Below, in pieces: positions 11,148 through 57,644 of a stretch of 64,000 bases of DNA. This DNA is from Vallitalea guaymasensis (GTDB lineage Bacteria; Bacillota; Clostridia; Lachnospirales; Vallitaleaceae), in the NCBI RefSeq assembly GCF_018141425.1, contig NZ_CP058561.1, positions 2,480,001 to 2,544,000 of the forward strand. Reading direction: 5' to 3'. Below the pieces are notes generated by a model. It was not told the origin of the DNA. It saw only the letters and a list, made by a program, of their open reading frames with translations, and did no database searches. A program made the position numbers and the translations under genes. How positions within the stretch are numbered: position 1 is the first letter of the stretch; each line of letters begins with the position of its first letter.

Positions 11148-12962
11148 TTATTTATTTCTATTTATGAATTTAGTTCTTTCGCTTTCTGTTAGATATTTCT
11201 TTCTTAATCTAATACTATCTGGTGTTATTTCTACTAACTCATCATTATCAATGAATTCTAATGCTTCTTCTAAGCTGAATATTTTTGGTGGTGATAATTT
11301 AACTGCATCATCTGCACCTGATGAACGAGTATTAGTTAATTTTTTGTTTTTACATGGATTAACTGTCATATCTTCTTTTCTAGAGTTAATACCTATAATC
11401 ATACCTTCATATACTTCTGTAGTTGCATGTATAATCATTGTTCCTCTTTGAGTTAGGTTATTAAGGGAATAAGGCATAGCTACACCTCTTTCTCCAGAAA
11501 TCAATACACCATTACTTCTACAAGGTATTTCACCTTTGTGAGGTTCATATGCTTCAAATGAACGTATTATTGTAGCTTCTCCTCTAGAATCAGTGATTAG
11601 TTCACTCCTGAATCCAAGTAATCCTCTTGTTGGAACAATAAATTCCATACGTGTATAACCATTTTCTGAAAGCATAGTTTCCATTCTACCTTTTCTAAGG
11701 TTAAGTTTGCTTATGGCTGTTCCAGAATATTCATCTGGGATATTAACTATAACTCTTTCTACTGGTTCTAGTAATTTACCCTCTTCTCTATGCATAAGAA
11801 CTTCAGGTTTTGAAACACTTAATTCGTAACCTTCTCTTCTCATATTTTCAATTAGAATAGAAAGATGAAGTTCTCCTCTACCAGATACTTTATATCCATC
11901 AATACCACCTAATTCATCTACTTTTAGACCAACGTTAATTTCTAATTCTTTATCTAATCTGTCTTTAATATGTCTAGTTGTAACATATTTACCGGATTGT
12001 CCTGCAAATGGTGAATTGTTAACTAGGAAATTCATTGACAATGTAGGTTCTTCTATTTTTATAAGTTCCATAGGTTCAACATTTTCTGGATCACAGAATG
12101 TTTCACCGATAGATAGATTAGAAATACCTGCTATAACAGCTATATCACCACTTTTTAATTCTTTCTTAGATACTTGATTAAGTCCTTCATAGGTAAATAG
12201 TTTGGAAATCTTACCTTTTTCAGTTGTTCCATCTCTTTTACATATAGCTACCTGCTGACCTTCTTTTATTACACCTCTTGAAACTCTACCAATACCTAAT
12301 CTACCAATATAATCATCATATGCTAGAGCAGATATTTGTAATTGTAATGATTCATTGTTTTTGTCTGGATAAGGTTTTGTATGTTTAACAATCGTTTCAA
12401 ATAGTGGAGTAAGATCTGTATAGTCATCATCCATAGAATATTTAGCTATACCTTCTCTTGCTGTACCGTATATTATTGGAAAATCAAGTTGTTCGTCGTT
12501 AGCATCAAGTTCTGCGAATAAGTCAAAAGTCATGTCTACAACTTCTTCAGCTCTTTGATCTTTTTTATCAATTTTATTAATGAATAGTATTGGGTTTAAG
12601 TTGTGTTCAAGTGATTTTTGAAGAACAAATCTAGTTTGAGGCATAGGACCTTCACTTGAGTCAACTAATAGTATTACTGTGTCAACTGTTTTAATGATTC
12701 TTTCTACTTCTGATGAGAAGTCGGAGTGTCCTGGTGTATCTACAATATTGATTTTATAGTCTTTATAGTTTATTGAACAGTTTTTGGAATATATTGTTAT
12801 TCCACGTTCTCTTTCAAGGTCGTTGCTATCCATTACTTGGTCAACAATCTCTTGGTTTTCACGAAAGATACCACTTTGAGTTAAGAACGCATCTACCAAA
12901 GTTGATTTACCTGCATCTACGTGGGCTATTACTGCTATATTTATAATTTTTTGTTCTGACAT
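11148..12962 (-). CDS. typA: Translational GTPase TypA/BipA
   Basis: 604 residues, full family length. G domain 1-200: G1 AHVDAGKST (13-21), G2 in ERERGITI, G3 DTPGHSDF, G4 NKIDK. EF-G-like domains II, III and V follow. The TypA-specific C-terminal region has LLGFRSELITDSRG and the motif RKEDMTVNPCKNKKLTN. TypA binds the ribosome and aids 50S assembly and growth under stress such as cold. The G1 loop has Ala and Ser where many TypA proteins have His and Thr (DHGKT); from memory this is common in Clostridia. A stand-alone gene with its own terminator. It starts with ATG behind AGCAGGGTAT. Confidence 0.95.
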   Translation of the reverse strand: MSEQKIINIAVIAHVDAGKSTLVDAFLTQSGIFRENQEIVDQVMDSNDLERERGITIYSKNCSINYKDYKINIVDTPGHSDFSSEVERIIKTVDTVILLVDSSEGPMPQTRFVLQKSLEHNLNPILFINKIDKKDQRAEEVVDMTFDLFAELDANDEQLDFPIIYGTAREGIAKYSMDDDYTDLTPLFETIVKHTKPYPDKNNESLQLQISALAYDDYIGRLGIGRVSRGVIKEGQQVAICKRDGTTEKGKISKLFTYEGLNQVSKKELKSGDIAVIAGISNLSIGETFCDPENVEPMELIKIEEPTLSMNFLVNNSPFAGQSGKYVTTRHIKDRLDKELEINVGLKVDELGGIDGYKVSGRGELHLSILIENMRREGYELSVSKPEVLMHREEGKLLEPVERVIVNIPDEYSGTAISKLNLRKGRMETMLSENGYTRMEFIVPTRGLLGFRSELITDSRGEATIIRSFEAYEPHKGEIPCRSNGVLISGERGVAMPYSLNNLTQRGTMIIHATTEVYEGMIIGINSRKEDMTVNPCKNKKLTNTRSSGADDAVKLSPPKIFSLEEALEFIDNDELVEITPDSIRLRKKYLTESERTKFINRNK

Positions 12963-13660: not shown

Positions 13661-13768
13661 ATTTATTTTTTATAGGAACTACGTTCTTGTTTAAATTTAT
13701 TACGTTAGATAAATCATATCGTTATACTGTGTAAGGCAAATGTAGATATGATAGAAATAACGAGTGTA

Positions 13769-13930
13769 GATAGTATAGGGGAATATGGAGCAGTGAGCCA
13801 TGGACGGCGAACTCAGCCTTTAATCTGACAGCCCTACTGGACTGTCAGAAATAAGAATGGACTCAATGTACATTCTTATTTAATTAACACGGACGTTTAA
13901 TTGGCTGACGGAATATTCTCCTATACTATC
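13769..13930. repeat. Large branched structured repeat, copy G (amt leader)
   Basis: Outer stem of 18 pairs (13769-13786 with 13913-13930, one G-U). Inside, CAGCC (13814-13818) pairs with GGCTG (13903-13907) and closes three hairpins. These are CTGACAG/CTGTCAG (13825-13848), AATAAGAATG/CATTCTTATT (13850-13880) and a stem with loop ACGGAC (13882-13902). The same architecture occurs on the other strand at 57261-57431, with compensating changes in the second hairpin. A conserved GGAGCGACCGT follows the outer stem. It lies between the attenuator and the amt start, so it is part of the amt leader RNA. Confidence 0.85.
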
Positions 13931-14026
13931 GGAGCGACCGTAGCCTAAATTATAAAGAAGTATAATTTGCTAATTTTGAAAATCTTTTGGAGGAACAAGC
14001 TGTTAAATATATACTAGAAGGGATGG

Positions 14027-35579: not shown

Positions 35580-35594
35580 ACGGTCAGGAAGTAA

Positions 35595-35625
35595 AGGGGT
35601 ATGTTACGCGACTTCACATACCCCT
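35595..35625. repeat. Hairpin directly after manA
   Basis: AGGGGTATGT (35595-35604) pairs with ACATACCCCT (35616-35625), with an 11-base loop. The pairing continues outward, imperfectly (GACG...GGAAGTA against TACTCCCTTCGTC). No T run. It may end the manA transcript or belong to the hairpin family described at 38371 and 47837. Confidence 0.6.
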
Positions 35626-35693
35626 ATACTCCCTTCGTCAGTGAGTAGCTCATAATCGCCTATTTGTGTTAGCCAAAAATCATGTACGTAAGA

Positions 35694-35869
35694 AGAAAAA
35701 ATGTTTTGTAACCTATACCACAAGACTACAAGCAATATAGTATATGTATATGTGGAGTAGTGAGGCATGGACGCCGAACCCAGCTATTTACTCAGGACGA
35801 GTAATTTGCTGGCGGAACATATACATATACTATATTGCAAATATCTCGTCAGAACAAAACAATTTTTCT
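35694..35869. repeat. Large branched structured repeat, copy E
   Basis: An outermost imperfect stem (35694-35709 with 35854-35869, 15 of 16 pairs) flanks a perfect 22-pair stem (35732-35753 with 35817-35838). The 63-base interior has CCAGC/GCTGG (35780-35784, 35808-35812) closing a hairpin TTACTC-aggac-GAGTAA (35788-35804). On the reverse strand the whole unit aligns with copy F at 57231-57468, which has two extra hairpins. No open frame. Not a terminator. Confidence 0.85.
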
Positions 35870-35928
35870 GACTTACCACCATGATTATATCCAAACTTAC
35901 TACCAACATAAAATATTAATCAACCTAT

Positions 35929-47556: not shown

Positions 47557-47836
47557 GGAATTTGTAGGATTTTTTGGGGATTAGAGTAAGTTTTTTAATA
47601 ACAACGGTTGTATGTGAAAACCATATATAGTGATAATCACTCTCGTTACATTTGTTGTCCTTATCTGTTTTAAAGGAATAACAACAAGCTGTAAAAATTT
47701 TTCTTATCACTATATATGGTTATTAATATATTTGGCGCTCTTGATAGAGTAAAAAACAGCGGTTTTAATACGTGAAGTTGATAAAATGCTGTTACTTTAA
47801 CGGGGAAGATTGTAATATAACGTACCATCAGCGAAA
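47557..47836. repeat. Structured intergenic region after pgi, including large hairpin J
   Basis: Hairpin J: perfect 18-pair stem (47619-47636 with 47704-47721) around a 67-base loop, with an inner stem TTGTTGT/ACAACAA (47653-47659 and 47681-47687). A further weak pairing AACAGC/GCTGTT follows at 47755-47760 and 47792-47797. There is no gene. J resembles copies E and L in stem length and loop size but shares no obvious sequence with them. Confidence 0.65.
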
Positions 47837-47905
47837 GTAGTATAGGGTTCATTTTACGAAGACCGATCCTTGGAGTAAGGCGAAGTAAAATGAACCCTAT
47901 ACTAC
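47837..47905. repeat. Long hairpin with conserved loop, copy B
   Basis: Two perfect 21-base arms (47837-47857, 47885-47905) and a 27-base loop (47858-47884). The reverse complement of the loop differs from copy A's loop (13317-13343) at one base, and the six adjoining stem pairs are the same, while the remaining 15 stem pairs are unrelated to copy A. Confidence 0.85.
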
Positions 47906-48195
47906 ATCCCCATATAACCGTTAGTCCACTCACATAAAAAACTACCCCCAAACATATTACACCCCTATACATCTGTTAGTCCATCATAATACAATAAAAC
48001 AAATCACCATACACAATAAGCTATACTTCCCAACACAAAAAATACTTTGCATTTTTTTTGTTAAAACTATATAATATATCATAACGATAAAAGCACGATT
48101 ATTACTATATAATAGGTTAAAAACTTATGAATCATAAATAATTACTCTAATTACGTAGATAATAATCATAAGAAAAACGAACGGAGGAAATTCAA
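47906..48195. other. Upstream region of metG
   Basis: AT-rich and without a gene. I looked for a T-box leader (conserved AGGGTGGNACCGCG and specifier loop) and saw none. Promoter hexamers are not clear; a TATAATATAT run at 48069-48078 is a possible -10. Confidence 0.4.
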
Positions 48196-50127: not shown

Positions 50128-50131
50128 CTAA

Positions 50132-50283
50132 CTCAACTTTCCCACTTCGATATATTATGCAGGTAAGCTAATTAAAAGGCTTTACAGAATAAAAATATAG
50201 GTGTTTCTTCTATGTTTTTATTCTGTAAACCAAACCTATAACCTTTAATTTACCTGAATTAAATTAAAGGTGGGAAAGTTGAG
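50132..50283. repeat. Three-tier nested hairpin after metG, copy K
   Basis: Outer perfect 14-pair stem CTCAACTTTCCCAC / GTGGGAAAGTTGAG (50132-50145, 50270-50283). The middle stem CAGGTAA / TTACCTG is extended by AATTAAAAGG / CCTTTAATT. The inner 20-pair stem (50181-50200 with 50210-50229, one T-G) has a nine-base loop. It starts four bases after the metG stop. No terminal T run, so it is more elaborate than a terminator. Confidence 0.75.
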
Positions 50284-50307
50284 GAATAAATTAGCCGGAT
50301 AATGGCT

Positions 50308-50445
50308 TAGGTTAAGGTTGGGTGTATGTACTATATTATTATGTATATACACCCAATTATCTTGTTTTATAGGAAATACCATTTTAATTAGCTGACGGGA
50401 TATTAACCTACACTAACGGAGCGAACGTTAAGTAGTTTATTAGTA
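50308..50445. repeat. Structured repeat related to copy G, copy I
   Basis: The segment TTAATTAGCTGACGGGATAT, followed by CCTA and GGAGCGAACGTT (about 50384-50430), aligns with the right side of copy G (TTAATTGGCTGACGGAATAT then GGAGCGACCGTAG). A short outer stem TAGGTTAA/TTAACCTA (50308-50315, 50403-50410) encloses a hairpin of 14 pairs, TTGGGTGTATGTAC / GTATATACACCCAA (50318-50331, 50343-50356). Shorter and more degenerate than G; together with K it fills the metG-tatD gap. Confidence 0.65.
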
Positions 50446-54184: not shown

Positions 54185-54196
54185 ACAAACAAAAAA

Positions 54197-54270
54197 CTCA
54201 GCCCTTTAAACACGGACGTTTAACGGGCTGACGAAATATTCCCAGGTACTACCTATGCGACTGTGAGCTA
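54197..54270. repeat. Half copy of the structured repeat, copy H
   Basis: CAGCCC (54199-54204) / GGGCTG (54225-54230) enclose TTAAAC-acggac-GTTTAA. Then follow a GACGAAATATTC and GCGACTGTGAGC. These align with the right half of copy G (loop ACGGAC, GGCTGACGGAATATTC, GCGACCGTAGCC). The left outer arm is missing, so this looks like a truncated element. Confidence 0.7.
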
Positions 54271-54289
54271 TATTAAATAATTAAATTCC

Positions 54290-57171: not shown

Positions 57172-57230
57172 GGTACTAAATAAAGCTTCCATGTGTGCTA
57201 TGTATTATAGGTGTTTATAGCTGGAAGGTC

Positions 57231-57468
57231 AGAAAAGTGTTTTGTTCTGACGTGGTTTCTGCAAAATAGTATATGTATATGTTTCGCCAGCTACTTGCTC
57301 GTCCTGAGCTCAATAAAATAATAATGCACATCGAGTCCATTATTATTTCTGACAGTCCAGTAGGGCTGTCAGATTAAAAGCTGGGTTCGGCGTCCTGCCT
57401 CACTACTTCACATATACTTATACTATTTTGCTCCTTATACCTTGGTTATTATCACAAAACACTTTTCT
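57231..57468. repeat. Large branched structured repeat, copy F (between padR and fabH)
   Basis: Outer perfect 15-pair stem AGAAAAGTGTTTTGT / ACAAAACACTTTTCT (57231-57245, 57454-57468). The second stem has 22 pairs with one mismatch (57261-57282, 57410-57431). Inside, GCCAGC / GCTGGG close three hairpins: one with loop GTCCT, AATAATAATG / CATTATTATT (57318-57347) and CTGACAG / CTGTCAG (57349-57372). Compared with copy E it has two more hairpins; compared with copy G the same hairpins with changed, still matching, stem bases. It is 170 bases upstream of the fab promoter. Confidence 0.87.
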
Positions 57469-57644
57469 TCTTAGAAGCGCGTTGGATAACTTTTTGTGTT
57501 GGTATATATTAGGAAATAAAAATTTCAGAGTCGGTATGAATGAGACTGTAATATCACAATATGTATAAATTCATAGAAATAAGTCTATCATTTATATGAT
57601 AGGTGTTAGGATAGGTTGGCTCAGTAAATATTTGAAATAAATTC

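Follow-up and report, generated by a model that had tools for sequence, protein, structure and literature searches.

Three multibranched repeats (E, F, and G), which lie within the 64,000 nucleotides of the Vallitalea guaymasensis genome analyzed here (the window), belong to the TwoAYGGAY RNA family (RF01731) or are closely related to it, and their three-way-junction structure with two A(N)GGA(Y) loops is under selection. All three belong to a single dispersed repeat family, of which a covariance model (R1), built from an alignment of short copies, identified at least 89 strong copies (E up to 2e-9) in this genome. We hold with moderate confidence that the dispersed copies are mobile, putative binders of the CsrA dimer that would act as a sponge or as a tie on messages.

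The repeat family and its copies

The first-pass annotation had recognized a multibranch repeat family in these three copies and in two partial ones (H and I); R1 matched E (E-value of 8e-24), F (3e-12), and G (2e-18), and the family proved to be far larger than noted. The earlier description of the outer stem, the GCCAGC/GCTGG inner stem, and the hairpins is correct. R1 was aligned from 29 of 30 short copies, the one left out (L063) being interrupted by an insertion sequence (IS); E and its short relatives are in or near the seed, and F and G lie outside it. At E ≤ 0.1, R1 gave at least 103 matches in the genome, including the 89 strong copies, with the 14 weaker rows representing partial copies and opposite-strand echoes. 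The copy count is a lower bound, as R1 scored the best 150 of 2632 first-look candidates; it includes a copy at 367884 that is cut by an IS and does not include an IS-split copy at 1547011. When the genome, a single contig of 5,626,074 bases, was searched with BLAST, F as query returned 81 matches, including self-complementary echoes, G returned 49, and H returned 22. By simple sequence rules, the 89 copies fall into at least five subtypes (52 F, 27 G, three type 3, five type 4, and two type 5). The features assigned to the family in the window are as follows:

13760..13945, + strand: copy G, a long-form member of the G subtype carrying the two-hairpin module (BLAST and R1 match 13765-13936)
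13800..13805, + strand: copy G, hairpin 1 loop ATGGAC (A-N-GGA-C; sequence, loop tally over copies)
13822..13886 (ends approximate), + strand: two-hairpin module inside hairpin 2 of copy G (variably present in other copies and in two orthologous pairs)
13889..13894, + strand: copy G, hairpin 2 loop ACGGAC (sequence, loop tally over copies)
35581..35637, - strand: core-less mini copy beside E, outer stem only, type 3 subtype (R1 E = 4e-6; sequence)
35670..35880 (ends approximate), + strand: copy E, a short-form member of the F subtype, its outer arms placed by comparison with F copies (R1 match 35732-35840)
35767..35772, + strand: copy E, hairpin 1 loop ATGGAC (sequence)
35794..35798, + strand: copy E, hairpin 2 loop AGGAC (sequence)
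50384..50430, + strand: copy I, decayed right end of a G-subtype copy (69% identity to the right end of G)
54190..54275, + strand: copy H, partial, hairpin 2 and right half kept, left half lost (BLAST; R1 E = 5e-5)
57211..57490, - strand: copy F, F subtype, long form (R1 match 57259-57427; empty site in three relatives)
57301..57305, - strand: copy F, hairpin 2 loop AGGAC (sequence)
57392..57396, - strand: copy F, hairpin 1 loop AGGAC (sequence)

The sense strand is + for E and G and - for F. The ends at first listed for the copies are not the element ends; F, read by eye against the empty site, spans about 57211-57490. H, noted at 54197-54270, is indeed a partial copy by its R1 match; I resembles the right end of G in a direct-repeat search but is a remnant with no R1 match. 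The mini copy beside E, found with R1, had been overlooked, and the description of the copies as free of a terminator T run needs qualifying at H, beside which a T run looks like the putative terminator of a neighboring gene. Mini copies with the outer stem only and the junction gone were also observed at L174 (4024058) and L175 (4921710), and a weak R1 match at 47830-47910 on the - strand of the window (24.7 bits, E = 0.0013 in a 115-kb search) is perhaps a fragment of the family.

The match to TwoAYGGAY emerged from an Rfam scan of short copies. The RF01731 model matched 22 places in the genome at E ≤ 1, two of them over the curated cut-off of 43 bits, and none of 14 control genomes; most copies in the genome are missed by Rfam's own model. 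At the gathering threshold, Rfam gave no match in the window or at three loci, and sensitive scans of F alone, of L016, and of L082 gave chance-level matches only. A junction with two AYGGAY-loop hairpins is found in the G subtype (loops ATGGAC and ACGGAC); most F-subtype loops are AGGAC, one base short of AYGGAY. Tandem G-A steps, which the accessible text of PMC4333381 names for one stem of TwoAYGGAY, are found in hairpin 1 of the short copies. Clear homology to a known Rfam family had been named in the first-pass annotation as a finding that would speak against its claim; such homology was found in part, and RF01731 is itself a structured-RNA candidate, so described since 2010 (PMC2864571, in the part available to us). 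Among the matches listed in a full-text literature search for the name TwoAYGGAY, the portions available held no work on function beyond the CsrA proposal of PMC4333381.

The covariance-model search, which had been proposed with the first description, was also positive outside V. guaymasensis, with R1 matches at E ≤ 0.001 in 16 of 96 relatives (own genome included; 40 candidates scored per genome, so that copy counts are lower bounds). Copy number is high in G000, G001, G002, G004, G005, and G035, the last of another family; G003, of the same genus as V. guaymasensis, has three R1 matches. In a sample of the class, six of 391 genomes had matches at E ≤ 1e-4 (nine candidates scored per genome, copy counts again being lower bounds). 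In most of the distant copies, the junction and both GGA loops are retained, with different stems. G002 carries tandem arrays of three (L235) and two (L233) copies with spacers of 40-60 bases; the triple array lies antisense to its flanking genes, putatively mutS and mutL. Neither a short G copy nor F had a blastn match among 72,556 plasmid and 50,697 phage records. Viral contigs were scanned by pattern; of the 22 contigs returned, one had a strong copy (L196, E = 1e-23) and one a weak match (L199, E = 0.007). The strong copy lies at 11673-11782 of a contig classed as viral (IMGVR_UViG_3300039008_000343; R1 score of 105 bits), and such a contig is a possible vehicle between hosts.

Structure and the selected strand

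The copies share a common plan, in which a long outer stem (18-22 pairs in the sense-strand alignment of short copies) leads to a three-way junction and two hairpins with A(N)GGA(Y) loops. The long stem is itself enclosed by another, outermost stem in types 4, 5, and F. Hairpin 1 of the G subtype reads GUGAGCC-AUGGAC-GGCGAAC and contains tandem G-A steps, with G31 A32 and G45 A46 invariant in all 29 aligned short copies; hairpin 2 has a longer stem, made of two parts, that is capped by ACGGAC, ATGGAC, or AGGAC. A two-hairpin module of about 67 nt, present in 31 of the 89 copies, is found in F and G; E and the other short copies are without it. In G, this module consists of the CTGACAG hairpin and the AATAAGAATG hairpin, and the compensated change first noted there between G and F (AATAAGAATG/CATTCTTATT versus AATAATAATG/CATTATTATT) is real and has been changed again in other copies.

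Pairing is close to strict among the 27 distinct rows of the 29 short copies: 99.9% of 918 pair cells are paired, a value that falls to 31-46% when the pairing is slid by one to three columns, and double changes occupy 128 cells in 19 of 34 pairs; 10 cells of the alignment are G-U on one side and one is unpaired. None of 500 shuffles reached the observed value on four of five measures, and 14 of 500 did on the fifth. The selection on structure proposed in the first-pass annotation is supported by this pairing, the double changes, and the shuffles; the contrary outcome that it had named, a search returning only the copies first seen with random stem decay, is contradicted by 89 strong copies with strict pairing. 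Sense-strand folding z-scores of three short members were -7.3, -10.1, and -7.3; because the antisense strands of two of the three fold as well (-8.1 and -9.9), folding alone cannot name the strand.

A strand test was based on counts of sense G-U versus A-C cells on the pairs that RNAalifold proposes from both strands. In a DNA cruciform, G-T and A-C would be tolerated to the same degree. On these common pairs, sense G-U exceeded A-C by 69 to 14 cells and by 42 to 9 pair columns (p = 3e-6), with 72 cells otherwise unpaired. The excess had the same direction in each of the five groups, which together comprise 137 unique copies (47 and 31 unique copies from V. guaymasensis and 59 from relatives; L237, with its core off the expected offset, was omitted); this common direction is the safer statement because cells share ancestry and the strand p-values are too small. 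When only the sense strand was folded, the counts were 106 versus 15 cells (88 otherwise unpaired), and such a fold favors G-U. Over all pairs of the antisense fold, columns stood at 44 versus 14 and cells at 72 versus 77, the latter count arising because the antisense fold closes A-C positions in the GGA loops. The G-U excess indicates that one strand, most likely acting as RNA, is selected; the choice left between an RNA and a protein-bound DNA hairpin in the first-pass annotation is thus tilted to RNA by the common-pair counts, and a single-stranded DNA hairpin of the top strand, which also fits the excess, is possible.

Alternatively, the ligand of an RNA element could be a metabolite or a protein different from CsrA, and the element could act on message stability or processing, for which palindromic repeats processed by RNase III provide an analogue. 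The length of the outer stems (18-22 pairs), of which types 4, 5, and F have two, would suit such a role, as would the placement of the copies relative to genes, which was assessed with mechanical open reading frames (ORFs) rather than annotation (≥60 aa for contexts, 100 aa for strand bias). Downstream of a same-strand ORF lie 55 of the 89 copies; tandem genes flank 59 (38 sharing the orientation of both neighbors and 21 opposed to it), convergent genes 17, and divergent genes 13. Because of the 21 that are antisense to both neighbors and the 13 between divergent genes, read-through cannot account for the transcription of every copy. We consider this RNA element without CsrA rather improbable, as it leaves unexplained why A(N)GGA(Y) loops are conserved across Clostridia while stems change. 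A coding origin was set aside; 23 of the 89 copies overlap a mechanical ORF, 21 of these ORFs being 60-104 aa long, and ORFs of 264 and 231 aa reach into the copies at 164670 and 3367317.

Conservation, turnover, and spread

Orthologous sites show both constraint and turnover. Over six orthologous pairs between V. guaymasensis and G005, cores differed at 7 of 710 positions and flanks (up to 300 bases per side, coding parts included) at 193 of 3342, so that cores change about six times less; L074/L266 was excluded because the V. guaymasensis copy is partial. In the two G-subtype pairs, the orthologs match each other better over the full core than they match the best paralog (109/110 versus 102/110 and 109/109 versus 104/109), which argues against homogenization; F-subtype copies are too similar for ortholog and paralog closeness to be told apart.

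Copies come and go in this family. G005 lacks 57211-57490 and is 92-94% identical over that part of the window (the junction at the F site was read by eye, the automatic alignment there being poor), and G003 and G001 are likewise without F at the matching site; R1 found no element in the matching-site stretches of these three genomes. Therefore, F was most simply gained in the V. guaymasensis lineage. Such a comparison with empty sites had been suggested in the first-pass annotation. At H, G005 lacks the core but has the right tail, so that this is not a clean empty site, and the G005 counterpart of I is different and shorter. The two-hairpin module is present in V. guaymasensis and absent in G005 at L010/L265, and the reverse holds at L179/L294, both within near-identical surroundings; gene conversion between copies is the simplest cause of such gain and loss. 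Two other candidate empty sites were discarded: at L126/L298, a deletion in G005 removed most of an F copy and left the left arm, and a second orthologous region was too rearranged.

Target duplications were sought in 48 of the 52 F copies, and nothing beyond short 2-mers was found; the best signal was a 2-mer in 18 copies versus 9.9 expected, with about 4000 combinations tried, and a short duplication could be missed where the left anchor is misplaced, as in a few F copies (e.g., 3186395). The same 48 copies have no terminal inverted repeat (best end identity of 40% versus a mean of 28%). These results bear on two explanations that take the repeat to be a mobile element in the first place. 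Under the first, a selfish structured repeat folds its sense strand for its own spread, with the GGA loops as recognition marks for the machinery; a tyrosine transposase would cut the folded strand as single-stranded DNA (REP/RAYT, IS200/IS605), or an RNA intermediate would be copied back. REP/BIME sequences with RAYT transposases are known as many dispersed intergenic hairpin repeats. Besides the ends of the F copies, the gain of F, and a one-strand G-U excess that equally fits a single-stranded DNA hairpin, this explanation can draw on the many copies carried by a patchily distributed group of genomes that each have subfamilies of their own, and on the sense strand being the leading strand in 61 of the 89 copies (p = 6e-4; origin near 2.3 Mb, inferred from the GC skew of sampled genome stretches). 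However, flanking ORFs share the leading-strand bias (136 to 41), so that the orientation of the copies may follow that of the genes, and constraint at orthologous sites would be unexpected for dead copies; we regard a purely selfish repeat as unlikely.

The second explanation, a classical MITE with terminal inverted repeats that is moved by a DDE transposase and folds as a by-product, appears very improbable. In its favor, the family is repetitive, dispersed, and palindromic; long outer inverted arms that start with GGGGCTGT or AGGGCTGT are found in type 5 copies, and F copies contain inverted arms about 30 bases in from the ends. A MITE would, however, account neither for the strand-specific G-U excess, the conserved loops, and the interior tandem G-A steps nor for an F subtype lacking terminal inverted repeats and target duplications (the ends of other subtypes were compared by eye only). 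Moreover, the window does contain a repeat with terminal inverted repeats, at 50131-50285, and it looks different. In the type 5 copies L100 (1168883), L173 (3485731), and L393, the arms vary between copies and stay complementary.

Other repeats occur around these copies. The repeat at 50131-50285, which looks like a classical MITE, has terminal inverted repeats CTCAACTTTCCCAC/GTGGGAAAGTTGAG, is absent at this site in G005, and has dozens of matches in G001, G003, and G005. A third dispersed repeat of about 155 bases lies at 47597-47755 of the window and is found many times in G003, G004, and G005 among the matches listed. Five identical IS copies of about 1.65 kb (L392-L396, at 4746297, 2580432, 2043643, 1547165, and 367947) encode a DDE_Tnp_1 transposase (PF01609) and have 18-bp inverted ends, CAATGTCATTAAGTTAAG. 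Four of the five have inserted into the loop of hairpin 1 in a TwoAYGGAY-type copy, where 10 bp are duplicated (by eye), and the target of the fifth is TTCCATAATC; this IS uses the TwoAYGGAY-type repeat as a landing site.

Proposed CsrA binding and comparison with known systems

The preferred reading, binding of CsrA, starts from the loops. High-affinity Csr/Rsm sites are hexaloops ANGGAX on a stem, with A-GGAX as a weaker form (accessible part of PMC4005645), and the CsrB repeat is CAGGA(U/A/C)G (from the section of PMC7652899 available). Judged by sequence, copies of the family carry at least two A(N)GGAX loops directly on a stem, and two CA(N)GGA sites were found in 88 of the 89 copies; the GGA loops are mostly closed by C-G (loop tally leaving out L237, L233, and L235). 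In a mononucleotide-shuffled control, two or more such loops occurred in 388 of 1780 sequences. TwoAYGGAY had been proposed as a CsrA binder from motif matches in PMC4333381, as far as its text was accessible. That most F loops lack the N of the high-affinity form counts against CsrA binding.

The V. guaymasensis genome has csrA adjoining fliW. Among the 96 relatives (own genome included), CsrA was found in all 16 that are R1-positive and in 60 of the 80 others (76 of 96 overall; p = 0.02), an association not independent of ancestry. In the class sample, CsrA was present in three of six R1-positive genomes and in 126 of 385 others (129 of 391 overall; p = 0.40), which is not a significant association. 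No CsrA was found in the R1-positive drafts G293 (80% complete), G310 (82%), and G344 (95%), which counts against a strict need for CsrA, one of the three being 95% complete; all three are of one genus, whose members G192 and G392 have CsrA.

If CsrA is bound, each transcribed copy would hold one CsrA dimer, with one GGA loop per RNA-binding face, by analogy with the hairpins of RsmZ and CsrB, which serve as the model for two-face binding. Copies sitting in untranslated and intercistronic stretches across the chromosome could then either titrate CsrA jointly, as a distributed sponge, or tie neighboring messages to CsrA, and would spread as non-autonomous repeats. We suggest only tentatively that a mobile repeat scatters double CsrA sites in this way, the approximately 176 GGA loops in 88 copies forming a sponge or a post-transcriptional regulon. 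Should CsrA prove to be the partner, repeats would here have wired up the regulon of a bacterial RNA-binding protein, and CsrA would have an RNA antagonist beyond the Gammaproteobacteria. The natural hexaloop and pentaloop variants, the gained copy, the orthologous losses, and the csrA-fliW pair make function and spread testable in this organism.

The family shares with TwoAYGGAY (RF01731, clan CL00106) the long outer stem, the junction, the two AYGGAY hairpins, the G-A steps, and occurrence in Clostridia; it differs in having at least 89 strong copies in one genome, at least five subtypes, an optional two-hairpin module, and AGGAC pentaloops as most of the F-subtype loops, with only two places passing the Rfam cut-off. 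With REP/BIME, it has in common dispersed intergenic hairpins, a strand-specific fold, and use as a landing site by insertion sequences, whereas the fold here is a three-way junction with GGA loops. Like the MITEs RUP, Correia, and ERIC, it is short, non-coding, dispersed, and foldable, but its F copies lack terminal inverted repeats and target duplications. Finally, CsrB/CsrC and RsmX/Y/Z likewise present GGA in ANGGAX or AGGAX hairpin loops, several per RNA (PMC4005645 and PMC7652899, in their accessible parts), a comparison made by loop letters only; in contrast to those RNAs, which are encoded by few genes with many sites each in Gammaproteobacteria, the family described here has two sites per copy and is scattered in dozens of copies through the genome of a host that has FliW.
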